DNA from: an uncultured Pseudomonadota bacterium
GTDB taxonomy: Bacteria > Pseudomonadota > Gammaproteobacteria > Methylococcales > Methylomonadaceae
Reading direction: 5' to 3'
Length of the DNA: 64,000 bases
NCBI GenBank assembly: GCA_903867225.1
Contig: CAIPQN010000040.1
Span: 1 to 64,000, forward strand
Shown: piece after piece, positions 40,305 through 49,098 of the stretch
Layout: every line of letters begins with the position of its first letter
Numbering within the stretch: position 1 is the stretch's first letter
Program-made: the position numbers and the translations under genes
The notes under the pieces: generated by a model
What the model was told of the DNA's origin: nothing
Database searches by the model: none
Seen by the model: only the letters and a program-made list of their open reading frames with translations

Positions 40305-41027
40305 TTATTGAGATACGATTGCCAGCCCTTGTAACACTAAGTTTGTTTCAAGGGTTAACGATTGCCGTAATTGCGTAGCAATCAATTCCGCATCCCCCCC
40401 CGTTAAAAATAATGCTGAATTTTTAGGTAAATCTTGCATTACTCGTTCAATCAATCCGCAAACCGCAAATAGCGTTCCGTTATAAATTGCTGCTTCTGTT
40501 TCAACTGAAAGTCCAATATGATGAGACGAATCTGTTAATGGCAAATCAGCGGTATTAAAGGCGAGGGCAGTTTTCATTAACGTTAATCCCGCACAAATAA
40601 ATCCACCCTGATGTTTTCCTTCTGCATTTAAAACATCTATCGTTATTGCGGTGCCGCAATCGACTACACAAACGGGCAAGTTCGTTTTTTGTCGCACTGC
40701 AATCAACGCTAACCAACGATCCACGCCTAATTTTTCAGGCTGTAAATAACCATTTGTGACACCAAATGCTTGTGTTTGTGTCATTGCAAAATCAATTGGA
40801 ATATCACGCCATAATTCTCGCGCCAACGTCGTTATTATGTTCAATAATGCTGCTTTTCCAACAGATGAAACCGAGATTTTTGTAGGGAGAAAATCTTGCC
40901 ACAATGTGCGTAAGATAGACGACGTAATTTCAGAATGAACTAACGTTTGCCCAATGATGCGTAATTCGATATTTTCAGCACACGCCCATTTCAAACGACT
41001 ATTGCCTAAATCTAGCAATAAATTCAT
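40305..41027 (-). CDS. coaX: Type III pantothenate kinase
   Basis: MNLLLDLGNSRLKWA, LGVDRWLALIAV, VVDCGTAITIDVLNAEGKHQGGFICAGL. Confidence 0.93.
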   Translation of the reverse strand: MNLLLDLGNSRLKWACAENIELRIIGQTLVHSEITSSILRTLWQDFLPTKISVSSVGKAALLNIITTLARELWRDIPIDFAMTQTQAFGVTNGYLQPEKLGVDRWLALIAVRQKTNLPVCVVDCGTAITIDVLNAEGKHQGGFICAGLTLMKTALAFNTADLPLTDSSHHIGLSVETEAAIYNGTLFAVCGLIERVMQDLPKNSALFLTGGDAELIATQLRQSLTLETNLVLQGLAIVSQ

Positions 41028-41812
41028 GCACTAAAACTCACTTCACCTGATGAGAATGTTTGAATTACGCCGTCATCACGTTCTAATTTCAATAAACCGT
41101 TTTTATCAATACCTTGTACGATTCCTGCGTGTTTCTGTGAACCGACAAAAAAATTGACCTGCTTTCCGAATAAGCAATCGTAGCTGCGCCATTCATCTAA
41201 ATACGCCGTCAAGGCTTTATCTTCAAATGTGGCGGCAATAGGTAATAATTCGTTGAGTAATTGTGCGATTATAAAATTGCGCTCTAAAACCATATCTGGC
41301 GAGACTTCATTTAAATTCGTATAGGCTTGCGTAATACTGTCAATGTTTGATGGTAAATTTAAATTTAGCCCTAAACCAATAACTGCATTTGCGCTGCCAT
41401 CGTGGTGTGACGTGACTTCAATAAGAATGCCGCCCAATTTTTTTCCATTACTGTAAATATCGTTGGGCCATTTTAATCCAACATTCATAATGCCATTTTG
41501 CCGCAAGACACGAATCACGCCCACGCCAATTGCTAAACTCAAACCACTCAAATTCGTGACATTGTTAAATCGCCACAAAAATGAACCGTAAATGTTTTGT
41601 CCTTGCGGTGAAATCCATTGTCGTCCATGTCTTCCTTTGCCAGCAGTTTGTTCTTCGGAAAAGCAGACGCTGCCTGACAATACATCGTTTTGAGCGCGAC
41701 CCATTAAATAACTATTGGTCGAATCAATACTCGAAAAAATTTCTAAATCGCAAATTAACGACTGAGCAATTTCAGTTAAATGCGTTTTGATTTCATTGCT
41801 ATTGAGCAGCAT
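41024..41812 (-). CDS. birA: Biotin--[acetyl-CoA-carboxylase] ligase
   Basis: IDSTNSYLMGRA, EQTAGKGRHGRQWISPQGQNIYGSFLWRF, LKWPNDIYSNGKKLGGILIE. Start chosen at the internal ATG 41812. Confidence 0.9.
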   Translation of the reverse strand: MLLNSNEIKTHLTEIAQSLICDLEIFSSIDSTNSYLMGRAQNDVLSGSVCFSEEQTAGKGRHGRQWISPQGQNIYGSFLWRFNNVTNLSGLSLAIGVGVIRVLRQNGIMNVGLKWPNDIYSNGKKLGGILIEVTSHHDGSANAVIGLGLNLNLPSNIDSITQAYTNLNEVSPDMVLERNFIIAQLLNELLPIAATFEDKALTAYLDEWRSYDCLFGKQVNFFVGSQKHAGIVQGIDKNGLLKLERDDGVIQTFSSGEVSFSA

Positions 41813-42416
41813 TATCTTGCATTTCTTTTTGTTGACGAATTTGTTGCAATTGTTTTTTCGCAACATGCTCACTCAATAAATCGCGGTCTATTTCTTTTAC
41901 ATTTATATAATTTACACCGACAAAATAGTCGAAACCTTCATCATTTATATTTTCATGTTTAAAACAATGAATCACTTTTGCGTATGTCACAATGACAACC
42001 GCACTAAGGACTAATAACATTTTAATTTCTAAATACTGTCCAACTTCTAGCTTTTCTTCACAATCAAAACCAAGCCCTGACACACTGATATTTGCATTCC
42101 GCGTTTTATTTTCAGTGATTTCATCACCACTTAAACCGATGACTGTTTGTGCAATTAAATTGATTTTAATATCGAGTAATTTCAAATAATCCGCAAAATC
42201 AGAATGAATTCGTTCTAATTTTTCATGGATTATGGCGGATTCTTCATTAATCAATTCTAATGCCGAAGCCAATGAACAATTATCGAGTAAACTGGCTTTG
42301 GTTTGAATAGGCTTTTGGATTTGTTGCTCATCAATTAAACGATACGATAAATTGATTTCATCGTTAACTCGAAAGAAATATCGTTTTTCTTCCCCGAAAT
42401 TTTTTCTGTGTTTCAT
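41799..42416 (-). CDS. PilZ domain-containing protein
   Basis: RxxxR-type motif (EKRYFFRVND) and a PilZ-like NISVSGLGF motif. Confidence 0.75.
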   Translation of the reverse strand: MKHRKNFGEEKRYFFRVNDEINLSYRLIDEQQIQKPIQTKASLLDNCSLASALELINEESAIIHEKLERIHSDFADYLKLLDIKINLIAQTVIGLSGDEITENKTRNANISVSGLGFDCEEKLEVGQYLEIKMLLVLSAVVIVTYAKVIHCFKHENINDEGFDYFVGVNYINVKEIDRDLLSEHVAKKQLQQIRQQKEMQDNAAQ

Positions 42417-42446
42417 GGCTTATTTTCCTGTTAAAAAGTGTTCGTT

Positions 42447-43568
42447 TTAAACCGCATCTGGTAAACCAAAGCGAATAATTTTTGCAAAGTCAGCAGCATT
42501 TAAACTTGCACCACCTACTAATGCACCATCAACCCCCGCTAATTGCATTATGGCGGCGATATTGTCTGGTTTCACGTTGCCACCGTATAAAATTCGGACT
42601 CGTGCCGCAATTTGCTCGCCGTATAAATCCATCAATAAATTGCGAATAAAATCGTGAACTTCGGCGATTTGTTCTAATGGCGCGGGTTGTGCGCCTTCGC
42701 CAATCGCCCAAATGGGTTCATAAGCAATAATAACTTCTGACATTGTGTGTCGCGCTACGCCATCTAATCCGATGCGAATTTGTCGTTCCAATAAATTAAA
42801 TGTTTCGTGAGCGCGTCGTGCTTCTTTGTTTTCACCACAACAAAAAATAACTTGCACGCCATTCGCTAACGCAGCTTGCACTTTACGTTGAATGGCATCG
42901 TCACTTTCGCCAGCGCGTTCATTTAATTCGGTTTCCAAAAAGGTTGCTAAACCCGCTAACACATCGCTATTTTGCTCATCTAACAAGTGTTCAATCGCGG
43001 CAAAAACTTGCGGATGGAGTTGTTGTTCACGCGATTTTAATTGTGTGAACGTGTGAGTTAAAAAATTTTTCGACAAACGCCGCGCTACACTCGAACTAAA
43101 ACCAAAGTATTTTCCCAAATTCGCACGGCGATCTGAATGTCCAACAATGACACGATCTACGCCAATCGCTGCCAACATATCGGCTGAAATTTCGCCCGTA
43201 AATGCGCCTTTTGATTCAAAAAAAGTATCTTGTGCCAGCAAAAAAACATTGCGTCCAATTCCGTATTCACGCCGCAAAAAATCAGGTTCAATATAATCGG
43301 CTAATGTTGATAAACCCGTAAATGGCGGGGCAAAGCCCATATCAACGTCTTTAACATCACGGCATAAATCAAAAAGCCGCGCCGCTAATGCCACACCCGC
43401 ACGCGGAATTAAATTCATTTTCCAGTTGCCCGCTAAAAACGGACGAATTGCACTCGGATCGCCACGTTCAGCAGGAATTTTGCGCCACTGATTCGCGGTA
43501 CGTTGGCGGTAATAATTTCGATAAGGTGGTGCGATAATTTTGGACGCGCTCATTTTAGAAACTCCCAC
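42447..43568 (-). CDS. tpiA: Triosephosphate isomerase, atypical (N-terminal extension plus internal insertion)
   Basis: Catalytic motifs AGNWKMN, VIVGHSDRR, AYEPIWAIGEG and YGGNVKPDN all present, but the ORF is 373 aa against about 250 aa typical. Confidence 0.88.
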   Translation of the reverse strand: MGVSKMSASKIIAPPYRNYYRQRTANQWRKIPAERGDPSAIRPFLAGNWKMNLIPRAGVALAARLFDLCRDVKDVDMGFAPPFTGLSTLADYIEPDFLRREYGIGRNVFLLAQDTFFESKGAFTGEISADMLAAIGVDRVIVGHSDRRANLGKYFGFSSSVARRLSKNFLTHTFTQLKSREQQLHPQVFAAIEHLLDEQNSDVLAGLATFLETELNERAGESDDAIQRKVQAALANGVQVIFCCGENKEARRAHETFNLLERQIRIGLDGVARHTMSEVIIAYEPIWAIGEGAQPAPLEQIAEVHDFIRNLLMDLYGEQIAARVRILYGGNVKPDNIAAIMQLAGVDGALVGGASLNAADFAKIIRFGLPDAV

Positions 43569-43581
43569 AATTCAAAGTTGG

Positions 43582-44493
43582 CTATAACTCAATTTCTAGT
43601 CCATCGTAAGCGACTTCAATGCCAGCCGTATCAAGTATTTTTCGTTCAGGTGAATCATTATCTAAAATTGGATTGGTATTATTGATGTGAATCAAAATTT
43701 TTCGGGCTTTGCTTACGTTATTTAAAACTTCAATCATGCCGCCTGCACCTGATTGTGGTAAATGCCCAATTTCACGCGCGTGTTTATGACTAATACCTTG
43801 TGTGACCATTTCATCGTCAGTCCAAAACGTACCATCAACCAACAAACAATCGACACTTTGTAGCGCGTCCATAACGTGCGGTTCGATTTCGCCCAAACCT
43901 GGTGAATAAAATACTTTTTTGCCTGTTGAAATTTGCTCAATAATTACGCCGATATTATCGCCATCGTGTGGGTCGTGACGGTGAGGAGAATAGGGCGGAG
44001 CTTTGCTTTTCAAGGCTTGCGTATAGAAACGTAAATCGGCAATTTGTGGAATTTCAAAACTACTGCCATCAACGGGAATGTCGTGATGATTCACGGTGCA
44101 ATAATCTTTCAACATGGTGAATAATGGAAAACCAGTTGTTAAATCTTGTTTCACCATTTCAGTACAATAAATATCCAGCGGTTTCCCTTCGCGTAACATC
44201 AATAAACCTGTGGTGTGGTCAATTTGGCTATCAATCAACATAATCGCTTTGATGCCTGTATCACGAATGCCATTTTGCGGTTGAATCGCGGGGAAGGCTT
44301 CAAGTTGAGCGCGAATATCAGGCGACGCATTAAACAATAACCAATTTTTATCATCTGTACTGATGGCGATTGATGATTGTGTACGCGCTGTACCATTCAT
44401 TTCGCCGCGTCGAATACGATGGCAATTGTGACAATTACAATTCCATTGTGGAAAACCGCCCCCCGCACCTGAACCTAAAACTCTAATTTTCAT
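43582..44493 (-). CDS. pqqB: Pyrroloquinoline quinone biosynthesis protein PqqB
   Basis: [25 protein letters not shown]-terminus typical of PqqB. Internal ATG start preferred. Confidence 0.97.
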
Positions 44494-44520
44494 TGTGTAA
44501 TCTCGTAAAAATAAAACCCG

Positions 44521-44550
44521 AAAAAAAAGGGGCAATCAGCCCCTTTTTTT
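44521..44550 (-). terminator. Hairpin/attenuator between pqqA and pqqB
   Basis: AAAAAAAAGGGGC AATCA GCCCCTTTTTTT; on the minus strand a GC stem followed by a T-run. Confidence 0.75.
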
Positions 44551-44571
44551 CATTCAAAAATCGATAAAAAA

Positions 44572-44646
44572 TTAACGATTGTAAATGTACATTGTAACTT
44601 CAAAACCGAAACGTAAATCGGTATAACGTGGTGTTTCCCATTTCAT
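44572..44646 (-). CDS. pqqA: PQQ precursor peptide PqqA (24 aa)
   Basis: Minus-strand ATG at 44646 to TAA at 44572: MKWETPRYTDLRFGFEVTMYIYNR, with the conserved E-x3-Y (EVTMY). Not in the supplied ORF track. Confidence 0.95.
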   Translation of the reverse strand: MKWETPRYTDLRFGFEVTMYIYNR

Positions 44647-44746
44647 AATCGTGACCCCTGAAAGTTTTTATAATATGTTTCAGCTTGCTAAATCTAAGCT
44701 GCGGCGAAGTATAAAAGGATTCGTTTTTTTACGCAACATTTGCAAA

Positions 44747-47179
44747 TTAGTCATCTTGGCTGTAAGAGCTGTAATGACTAGGATTGGCGCAATTTTGAAA
44801 ACGTGAATATGCACCTTGGAACATTAACCTGACCGTACCAAGTGGACCATTTCTTTGTTTGCCAATAATCAATTCTGCGGTGCCTTTATCGGGACTATTT
44901 TCGTTATAAACTTCGTCGCGGTAAATGAACAAAATCAAATCTGCGTCTTGCTCAATCGCGCCAGAATCACGCAAATCAGACATTACTGGACGTTTGTTTG
45001 GACGTTGTTCTAAATTTCGATTAAGTTGCGATAACGCAATTACGGGTACATTTAATTCTTTTGCCAACGCTTTCAAACCACGCGAAATATCTGAAATTTG
45101 CTGTACTCGACTTTCACCGCTGGTGGGTGAATTCATCAACTGCAAATAATCGACGACAATCAAGCCTAATTGTCCGTGTTCACGCGCTAAACGTCGCGCT
45201 CTTGCCCGAATTTCACTCGGCGTAAGCGCAGCACTATCATCAATGAAAATCTTGGTACTATTTAGCATCGTCAATGCCATCGTTAAACGAGGCCAATCGT
45301 TATCATCCAAATCACCTGAACGTACACGTTGTTGCTCAATGCCGCCAAGCGACGACATCATTCGCATAACAATAGCATCGCCTGGCATTTCCATACTGAA
45401 TACCGCGACGGGTTTTTCATTTTTAATCGCAAAGTTTTCAGCGATATTCATCGCCACTGTCGTGTTATGAACAACCGTCATATCTTCGAGAAGAAATAAT
45501 TTATTGCCGTCAATTTCAAAACCGAAATACTCATCTTCGCAGTCAATCTCAACACTAATACCAGTTTGATTCCATGAGCGATTGCAAGTCCATGGTTTAG
45601 CTTTTTTGCGTTCAATTTTTACTGGAATTTCATCAACATTGCCAAAGAAACGCACGCGATAAACCGTTGTTTCAAAATTGATTTCAGCAATCGTTGCTTG
45701 TTTTTCAATCAACGAGGTGCGATAACCTAAACTGTCGCACAAAAATTTAATTTGTGTCGCCAATGCTAAACTATTTTGCGTAATTTCATACCCGCCACAG
45801 GCTTTATCATAATGCCCGTCGCTATCCATCAGCCCTGCTAATAATTCCAAACGATTGGCGCGTGAATTGATAATAAATGCTTCTGGAATATGCTTGTTGC
45901 CGATTAAATTGAGATCATTTAATACACTGGTCAACGAATACCGTTTTTTGTAATCACCACCTTGAATACCAGAGGTAACACCGTACATTGGGCATTTACC
46001 TTGAGCTATTTGTGAGGTTAATTGCAAACCAAGCTCTTCAGCATATTGTGATAAAAATTGCTCAATTTCTAAATCTTGTGAACTAATGCGAACATCTTGT
46101 GTATTGCCATCGCCCAACCATAAACCCAAAAAATATGGATTTATTGGCAACGCTTGTTCTGCAAAATCGACGGTAACTTTATAGCCTTTGTAATTCGATT
46201 TAAATTTTTCAGAAGCGTTCAAATACTCCAATAAAGGTAAATTTAAAACATCGCCATTTTGATGTTTGCCATCGCTACGACTGCGTTTCAAAGATAAAAT
46301 ATGTGATTCATTGACACGATAATCAATCGCTTTATTTTGGCGAATCCAATACATCGTTTCACGTCCACGCGCCAACGATAAAACATGGCGGGGTGTTGAA
46401 TCGTCGCCCATTAAACAATCACCAACTTCAATATCTTCGACATTTTTAATTTCACCCGAATAGAGCAAAATCTTTGTACCTTTACCAAAGCATTTACCCA
46501 TCGACGGTCTACCTGCAACAATAATCAAATCGGCAGGTTGCAAACCAGAAGTCAGTGTATCTAAATCATCGAAACCCGTTGATGCCCCTGTCATTGAACC
46601 ATCGAGTTCTGCGAGTAATTCAATTTTTTCAATCGTTTTTTTTGCCAATGCCCGAATACCAACAAAACCACCTTCATCAGATTTCTGCGTTTGTTCGGCA
46701 ATTTTAAAAACTAATTTTTCTGCATTTTCGAGTAGCTCTTGTGTCGATTGTCCTTCAGTTTGATAAACCGAATTTGCAATCGTCGTTCCCGCGCTAATCA
46801 ATTGGCGTAACACCGATTTGTCACGCACGATATTAGCGTAAGCAGCAACATTTGTGGCGCACGGCGTATCTTTTGACAACACAATTAAATAAGACAAACC
46901 ACCAACCGCGTCTAAATGTCCTAACGATTTCAATGATTCTGACAGCGTAATAATATCAAACGGAATTTGTTGTTCGGCTAATTGGGCGATGGTACGAAAA
47001 ATAAGTTTGTGCGAACGCAGGTAAAAATCGACTTCCGAAATTTTATCGGCAACTGTATCCCATGCGCCATTTTCAATAATTAACGACCCCAAAACAGACT
47101 GTTCAGCATGTATAGAATTCGGTGGGGATTTTAGAGAATCGAGGGTGTGATCTCGTTCAAGTAAATAGCTTTCTGACAT
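44747..47179 (-). CDS. dnaB: Replicative DNA helicase DnaB, intein-containing precursor
   Basis: DnaB N-domain and RecA-like domain (GRPSMGK / TTVAMNIAENFA, VFSMEMPGDAIVMRMMSSLG, IVVDYLQLM) interrupted after GK by a 343-aa intein. Confidence 0.97.
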   Translation of the reverse strand: MSESYLLERDHTLDSLKSPPNSIHAEQSVLGSLIIENGAWDTVADKISEVDFYLRSHKLIFRTIAQLAEQQIPFDIITLSESLKSLGHLDAVGGLSYLIVLSKDTPCATNVAAYANIVRDKSVLRQLISAGTTIANSVYQTEGQSTQELLENAEKLVFKIAEQTQKSDEGGFVGIRALAKKTIEKIELLAELDGSMTGASTGFDDLDTLTSGLQPADLIIVAGRPSMGKCFGKGTKILLYSGEIKNVEDIEVGDCLMGDDSTPRHVLSLARGRETMYWIRQNKAIDYRVNESHILSLKRSRSDGKHQNGDVLNLPLLEYLNASEKFKSNYKGYKVTVDFAEQALPINPYFLGLWLGDGNTQDVRISSQDLEIEQFLSQYAEELGLQLTSQIAQGKCPMYGVTSGIQGGDYKKRYSLTSVLNDLNLIGNKHIPEAFIINSRANRLELLAGLMDSDGHYDKACGGYEITQNSLALATQIKFLCDSLGYRTSLIEKQATIAEINFETTVYRVRFFGNVDEIPVKIERKKAKPWTCNRSWNQTGISVEIDCEDEYFGFEIDGNKLFLLEDMTVVHNTTVAMNIAENFAIKNEKPVAVFSMEMPGDAIVMRMMSSLGGIEQQRVRSGDLDDNDWPRLTMALTMLNSTKIFIDDSAALTPSEIRARARRLAREHGQLGLIVVDYLQLMNSPTSGESRVQQISDISRGLKALAKELNVPVIALSQLNRNLEQRPNKRPVMSDLRDSGAIEQDADLILFIYRDEVYNENSPDKGTAELIIGKQRNGPLGTVRLMFQGAYSRFQNCANPSHYSSYSQDD
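45464..46492 (-). mobile_element. DnaB intein (343 aa) with LAGLIDADG-type homing endonuclease domain
   Basis: Starts CFGKGTKILLYSGEIKNVEDIEVGDCLMG, ends EDMTVVHN, then T(+1). Dodecapeptide-like FLGLWLGDG and LLAGLMDSDG. Boundaries checked against the nucleotides. Confidence 0.95.
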
Positions 47180-47450
47180 GGTTGCTCTGGATAATGAATC
47201 AAATCAATACGGCGAAAAAAAGCGCGGTTTCTTCGTTAAACCACGCTTTGTTAATCTTTCAATTTTTTTATTTCTCTGTGAATTCGAGCAGAAGTTTAGC
47301 AGAAAAGTCATTGCTAAACTACGTTGACAGATGGCAAAAAATCGTCATTACACAGTAAAAAATGCACCTTGTTTTTAAACTTATTACCCACATAATAAGG
47401 ACGACGCAACTGCGTTTTCTTTTATAAACAACAATCTCGGAGAATACAAA

Positions 47451-48026
47451 ATGGCAGTTTCATTAAGCAAAGGCGGCAACGTTAATTTAAGTAAAGAAGC
47501 CCCAAATTTGAACAAAATCGTGGTGGGTTTAGGTTGGGCAGAGCGTTCAACAGACGGCGCGGCATTCGATTTAGACGCAAACGCTTTTTTATTAAAAGCA
47601 GACGGTAAAGTGCGTAACGATGGCGATTTTTGTTTTTATAACAATAAAATTGTCGCTGACGGTGCGGTTCAACACGCTGGTGATAATAAAACTGGAGCGG
47701 GTGAGGGCGATGACGAAACAGTTAAAGTTGAATTATCAAAAGTGCCAGCGGATGTAGACAGAATCACGTTTTGCGTCACGATTCACGAAGGCGAAACGCG
47801 TCACCAAAATTTTGGACAAGTTAGAAACGCTTACATTCGCGTGATTAACGAAGACGGCGGCGTGGAATTAGCACGTTATGACTTGAGCGAAGATGCGTCA
47901 GTTGAAACGGCAATGATTTTCGGTGAATTGTATCGCAACGCAGGCGATTGGAAATTTCGTGCGGTAGGACAAGGTTTTGCAGGCGGATTAGCTCCTTTAG
48001 CAACTTCATTTGGTGTAAGTGTTTAG
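47451..48026 (+). CDS. TerD family protein, copy 1
   Basis: [76 protein letters not shown]. Confidence 0.93.
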
Positions 48027-48034
48027 GATTAAAA

Positions 48035-48634
48035 ATGGCAATTAATTTAGAAAAAGGGCAGAAAATTTCGCTCGAAAAAGAATCTGGTAAAACGCTCACG
48101 AAAGTTGTGATGGGTTTAGGCTGGGACGCAAAATCGTCGGGCGAGAAAAAAAGTTTATTGGGCGGCTTATTTGGTGGCGGTGCAAACGAAAGTGCTATTG
48201 ATTTAGATGCGTCTTGCATTATGTTTGCAGGCAATAAACCAGTTGATGCGGTTTTTTTCGGACAACTAAAGAGCAAAGACGGAAGCGTTTCTCACAGTGG
48301 TGATAATCGTACAGGCAAAGGCGATGGCGACGACGAGCAAATTGTCGTGGATTTAAGTCGCGTACCTGAATCTGTGACGGCATTAGTGTTCACAGTAAAT
48401 TCATTTACTGGGCAAACATTTGACTTGGTTGAAAATGCGTATTGTCGTTTGCTCGATGGTGGCAATCAGAATGAAGTTGCACGTTACACATTAACTTCAC
48501 AAGGCGCACATACCGCGCAAATTATGGCGAAACTGTATCGACATAATGGTGAATGGAAAATGCACGCGATTGGTGAAAATGCGACAGGTCGCACGATTAA
48601 CGATTTGTTCCAACCGATTAGTTTGTTGTTATGA
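48035..48634 (+). CDS. TerD family protein, copy 2
   Basis: [81 protein letters not shown]. Confidence 0.93.
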
Positions 48635-49098
48635 AACGTTCAATGAAAATTTTAGCGGCTGGTTTGTTGGCGACATTTGCATTTTCCGCCGTCGCTGATG
48701 AAATTGGCGAAGTTTCGACGACGTTTAATCTCCTTAGTCCAAACAGTAAAATTGTGATTGAAGCCTTCGACGATCCCGAAGTGGCTGGTGTAACGTGTCA
48801 TGTTTCAAAAGCAAAAACAGGTGGTGTCAAAGGTGCTGTTGGTTTGGCGGAAGACCCGTCAGAAGCTTCGATTGCCTGTCGGCAAATCGGTGCGATTGAT
48901 GTTAGTAAACTAGGAAATTTGAAAAATGGCGATGTCGTTTTTAAAGAAAATCGCTCGTTGATTTTCAAAACCTTGCAAGTAGTGCGTTTCTTAGATAAAA
49001 AACGAAATGTGCTGATTTACTTGGTTTACAGCGATAAATTGATTGACGGTTCACCGAAAAATTCGATTTCTTCGGTACCGATTATGAAGTGGAATTAA
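48631..49098 (+). CDS. CreA family protein, secreted
   Basis: Signal peptide then [64 protein letters not shown]. Overlaps terD2 by ATGA. Confidence 0.9.

Follow-up and report, generated by a model that had tools for sequence, protein, structure and literature searches.

A class-1-type intein with a PI-SceI-type endonuclease domain in the Walker A motif of a Methylococcales DnaB helicase

Among proteins of solved structure, the closest relative of the intein described here is PI-SceI, the Sce VMA intein of yeast VMA1, which comprises 454 amino acids and has a Cys at position +1. PI-SceI also interrupts an ATPase P-loop, its insertion falling a few residues earlier in the motif than the present one, which follows GK. 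That P-loops are a hotspot for inteins is already known: about 70% of inteins are found in ATP-binding proteins, and the position between Lys and Thr is regarded as the "classic" insertion (PMC5050341). The mycobacteriophage TerL1-a intein, by its description, lies at this point, between the invariant Lys and Thr of Walker A, in a terminase (PMC5050341). Insertion sites have likewise been defined in DnaB, where the P-loop site is referred to as site b in Mycobacterium (PMC6195587). The Mycobacterium smegmatis intein at this site, DnaBi1, is a class 3 mini-intein that lacks an endonuclease, and the Ser/Thr of the P-loop doubles as a splicing residue (PMC6195587).

The window, by which we mean the whole 64,000-nt stretch of DNA that was analyzed, belongs to a metagenome-assembled genome (MAG) of 2.64 Mb in 110 contigs; the host is a lake bacterium of the order Methylococcales, presumably a methanotroph. 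One ORF on its minus strand was identified as the replicative helicase DnaB by matches to the NCBIfam DnaB equivalogs and to Pfam DnaB_N and DnaB_C. The translation reads ...IIVAGRPSMGK / CFGKGTKILL...LLEDMTVVHN / TTVAMNIAE..., and removal of the middle segment leaves a DnaB of 467 amino acids (810 minus 343) with the junction restored to GRPSMGKTT. The initial annotation had proposed an intein here, and translation bore out its coordinates and lengths, the Cys, penultimate His, C-terminal Asn and Thr+1 that it named, and its location in the DnaB P-loop. The insertion separates the Walker A Lys from the Thr (GRPSMGK/TT), as in site b alleles. The C-extein runs on without interruption, RDSGAIEQDADL included, and site a, in the DNA-binding loop of motif H4, is thus unoccupied. 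The features are listed in Table 1.

Table 1. Features of the dnaB locus, with positions in the window
Feature	Position	Strand	Basis
dnaB precursor ORF, 810 aa (N-extein, intein and C-extein)	44747-47179	-	Translation, Pfam, single match in own genome
DnaB N-extein, 229 aa, ends with Walker A ...AGRPSMGK	46493-47179	-	Pfam DnaB N-terminal domain, 2.6e-31
Intein, 343 aa (1029 nt); C1, N61xxH64, H342 N343	45464-46492	-	Hom_end_hint 4.2e-23, AlphaFold, Foldseek
Splicing (Hint) domain, N-terminal part, ~aa 1-107 (block A C1; block B NESH, H64)	46172-46492	-	Aligned to PI-SceI 1-54 and to the G143 143-aa mini-intein; boundary approximate
LAGLIDADG homing endonuclease domain, ~aa 112-299; putative catalytic D128, K200, D225, K297	45596-46159	-	LAGLIDADG_3, Hom_end, PI-SceI alignment; boundary approximate
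Splicing (Hint) domain, C-terminal part, ~aa 305-343, ends VVHN	45464-45580	-	Aligned to PI-SceI C-terminus; kept in mini-intein
DnaB C-extein, starts TTVAMNIAE; T+1 is also the Walker A Thr	44747-45463	-	Pfam DnaB_C, 2e-101

A search of the window genome showed dnaB to be single-copy and returned no second dnaB and no second intein of the Hom_end_hint family. No interruption was found in the other P-loop genes of the window (e.g., lon and clpA). The neighbors of dnaB (pqqB, tpi, terD and creA) are chromosomal and occur in collinear order in congeners. Two of these neighbors have features of their own. The triosephosphate isomerase gene (42447-43568, minus strand) encodes about 70 extra residues (~150-220) directly after the GHSDRRA active-site loop, which do not align to the best-matching solved enzyme but are conserved in the congeners G011 and G003. 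A gene with a TerD domain and a similar ORF next to it (47451-48634, plus strand) are transcribed divergently from dnaB.

As the sequence comes from a MAG in 110 contigs, the insert might be an assembly chimera or an annotation artefact. However, a single frame is open across all 810 codons, and the same 343-aa insert, 99% identical, is found in the same dnaB of an independently assembled second MAG (G011; CAINDC010000177.1; 99.4% over the intein). The site and frame are also identical in isolate genomes, such as that of Methylovulum psychrotolerans. The probability of an artefact is negligible; the insert is confirmed to be real, and chance is excluded.

The intein begins with CFGKGT and finishes with TVVHN. 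When searched against the Hint and LAGLIDADG models, it matched Pfam Hom_end_hint (4.2e-23), LAGLIDADG_3 (2.6e-9) and Hom_end (6.6e-8), all confined to the insert, and both dodecapeptide motifs named in the initial annotation, FLGLWLGDG and LLAGLMDSDG, were found. PI-SceI was the best PDB sequence match (2.3e-20). In the alignment, D128, K200, D225 and K297, all intact, correspond to D218, K301, D326 and K403, the active-site residues of PI-SceI, giving two LAGLIDADG motifs with aligned acids and basic partners, as in a PI-SceI-type endonuclease. N61ESH64 aligns with the block B NxxH motif of PI-SceI and is conserved across relatives. C1, H64, D128, K200, D225, H342 and N343 were invariant in 52 relatives.

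The AlphaFold model of the intein was of high confidence (pLDDT 94.8, pTM 0.92), and Foldseek placed PI-SceI structures at ranks 1-11 (E 2.7e-26, TMq 0.71-0.81), the top TMq being that of the DNA-bound form, 1lwt. The splicing part of the model was matched by Prp8 mini-inteins (TMt 0.90), and the Hint fold is thus seen both in the Hom_end_hint match and in the model. Sequence identity to PI-SceI over the structural alignment is only ~22%, and the two differ in that the window intein is shorter between the N-terminal part of the Hint domain and the endonuclease, has Thr rather than Cys at +1, and resides in a bacterial DnaB. They nevertheless share the Hom_end_hint and Hom_end families and the aligned catalytic and splicing residues. 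C1, N61ESH64, H342-N343, Thr+1 and the in-frame insertion in a conserved protein are the sequence features of class 1 inteins, whereas class 3 inteins, such as M. smegmatis DnaBi1, lack the N-terminal nucleophile that is present and invariant here. The conserved residues, the model and the PI-SceI fold matches together indicate an intein of class 1 type whose endonuclease is full and appears intact. We are highly confident that the locus represents a full-length, bifunctional, PI-SceI-type intein of this class in the Walker A motif of a chromosomal, single-copy Methylococcales dnaB.

From these features, we infer how the window intein would splice, cleave and home. C1 would start an N-S shift at Lys/Cys, the thioester would then be transferred to Thr+1, and cyclization of Asn343, with His342 assisting, would release the intein and allow the exteins to be ligated as GRPSMGKTT in the 467-aa DnaB. 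The unspliced precursor would be expected to have no ATPase activity, because its P-loop is broken. The LAGLIDADG domain should cleave dnaB alleles that lack the intein, at GGTAAA^ACG, after which the intein would be copied into the cut gene by repair.

Since P-loop insertion makes the precursor inactive in principle, the intein might instead serve as a conditional switch, in which splicing delayed by stress gates the activation of DnaB and thereby replication. Such conditional splicing is known for the P-loop DnaB intein of M. smegmatis, in response to oxidative stress (PMC6195587) and to zinc (PMC7360933). However, that intein is of class 3 and has no endonuclease, whereas the window intein has C1 and a full LAGLIDADG domain. 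Moreover, the intein is absent from 12 congeners, and any switch would therefore be dispensable. We consider such a regulatory role highly improbable.

These 12 congeneric genomes have exact empty sites, with an insert of 0 aa at the same codon junction, and thus provide the intein-less cognate alleles that the initial annotation had proposed looking for in sister strains. The 60-nt flanks of the empty sites share 48-57 nt with the window. In a tree of dnaB DNA, the window and G011 adjoin the empty G003 (support 95/92), while another carrier, G009, adjoins the empty G010 (99/100). Carriers therefore occur at two places in the tree, and a minimum of two gains or losses is needed. This pattern does not demonstrate that homing took place recently within the genus, because the G009 and window inteins have diverged about as much as their exteins; repeated loss or allele replacement within the genus fits as well.

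A recent homing event with co-conversion, involving the window genome and G011, was also considered. Identity between the two is 96-99% across 40.5-49 kb, compared to ~92-93% beside it. This explanation was rejected, since nothing ties the high-identity patch to the intein in particular: terD matches its G011 counterpart at 99.65%, and another stretch of ~9 kb does so at 97%. As a separate observation, the rise in identity at window positions 40500-49000 suggests mosaic recombination between the window species and the G011 species.

Relatives in the same order show the intein in various states of decay. In G025, it is full length, but WLGEG and LIDSVG replace the catalytic acids. The inteins of G009 (290 aa) and G021 (297 aa) have endonuclease deletions, and G143 has a 143-aa mini-intein (L217) at the same dnaB site, with the endonuclease gone and the linker changed. 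The latter is a natural minimal splicing domain for comparison. The family thus covers most of the homing cycle, from empty sites through intact, acid-mutated and partly deleted inteins to the mini form. Two dnaB ORFs, L218 (G021) and L219 (G041), encode 1185 and 1378 aa and have an apparent second insert besides that in the P-loop, near residue 738 of the window DnaB and close to RDSG/AIEQ, which is perhaps another intein, at a different one of the known sites.

The decayed relatives, with both acidic motifs altered in one, ~50 aa lost in two and only a mini-intein in another, raise the alternative that the window intein still splices while its endonuclease no longer cuts, making it a fixed or declining passenger that persists because its exact removal from an essential P-loop would be difficult. 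The presence pattern within the genus is compatible with losses. However, the window copy is full length and has kept D128, D225, K200 and K297, and between intact copies the dN/dS of the endonuclease is low (0.05, G148-G026), showing constraint as in the splicing part. We therefore consider a non-cutting passenger unlikely, if not to the same degree as a switch. The G000-G009 comparison gave dN/dS values of 0.04 for the Hint domain, 0.06 for the endonuclease and 0.05 for the extein. The earlier suggestion that the endonuclease may be active is strengthened by the four intact residues that align with PI-SceI, to which the decayed relatives provide a contrast.

Scanning GTDB genomes yielded 80 loci in Methylococcales, Thiomargarita, Campylobacterota and Bacteroidota, with the intein at the same DnaB site. 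The DnaB P-loop inteins of Methylovulum, Crenothrix, Sulfurospirillum, Aliarcobacter and Hymenobacter (L048-L126) share the site, architecture and motifs of the window intein, are 336-349 aa long and are 57-68% identical to it, but represent other hosts and alleles, some of those in the order being decayed. No paper was found in the literature that treats these inteins together. The phage records contained 676 matches, with identities up to 44%. Plasmid carriage was rejected, as plasmids gave only weak, mostly partial matches. The initial suggestion that the allele and host could be new was thus half right: the host and allele are different, but the P-loop site in DnaB is known (PMC6195587), and the intein is one member of a very large family that is spread across Methylococcales, Campylobacterota, Bacteroidota and phages.

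Vertical inheritance from an ancestor shared by these phyla was rejected, as the inteins were more alike than the DnaB exteins in all 889 of 889 cross-phylum pairs (means of 61-64% vs. 36-41%). Within Methylococcales, average identity was lower for the inteins (77%) than for the exteins (82%). In the extein tree, each cellular phylum occupied one side of a branch (that of Bacteroidota lacking support of its own), whereas neither Methylococcales nor Campylobacterota did so in the intein tree. Two DnaB inteins from viral contigs (L127 and L128) nested inside the gammaproteobacterial intein clade (100/99). A single Methylococcales intein clade, and with it a single entry into the order, was rejected (p-AU 7e-5); a single Campylobacterota clade was not (p 0.09). 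The window lineage and the main Methylococcales lineage therefore represent separate entries or phage-mediated exchange. Overall, these comparisons show that the intein has been transferred across phyla and phages.

Beyond the known P-loop hotspot, the present data show a single intein family, the window's own, at the same junction of NTPases that are not related to one another. Of the 67 distinct viral-contig relatives, picked by intein similarity only, 61 were located at GK/[ST] or G/[ST](x)GK, and at least two of the remaining six were in terminases with degenerate P-loops (L176 and L193). By Pfam and PHROGs, the viral host proteins were DnaB, SF2 helicases, another helicase (phrog_2488), several terminase families, PhoH, dNMP kinase, SbcC, AAA ATPases and an ABC-like protein. 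On the intein tree, whose deep forks are weak, host families require 26 changes, compared to a minimum possible of 9, or 18 changes when hosts of unknown family are left out. Supported clades mixed SF2 helicase with terminase (100/94), SbcC with DnaB (97/88), and DnaB with terminases (99/90). One host, L188, was labelled a terminase solely because it matched phrog_5902, which is found alongside terminase families. A further intein was observed in a Methylococcales MAG (L038, G292, 1501-2523); it is 35% identical and lies in a protein whose junction, GHS/TGKT, looks like a terminase P-loop, perhaps of a prophage.

Directly before the intein, each of the four Gly codons and each of the two Lys codons is used, in phages and cells alike; there is therefore no conservation at the wobble positions, and this variety led us to reject a nucleotide-level target signature. 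It is possible, though we would stop short of calling it probable, that a single lineage tracks the Walker A coding sequence. Its endonuclease would recognize P-loop codons while tolerating changes at wobble positions, and could thereby colonize non-homologous P-loop NTPases (DnaB, SF2 helicases, terminases, PhoH, dNMP kinase, SbcC and AAA ATPases) and pass between phages and the cellular replicative helicases of different phyla.

On its own, the window intein simply lengthens the list of DnaB P-loop inteins. The set of relatives, with phage DnaB inteins among gammaproteobacterial ones, makes it testable how inteins cross phyla, and also why they cluster in P-loops, whether through motif-directed homing or through tolerance and regulation. 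In natural genomes of one bacterial family, this single site is seen empty as well as occupied by intact, acid-mutated, partly deleted or mini inteins.
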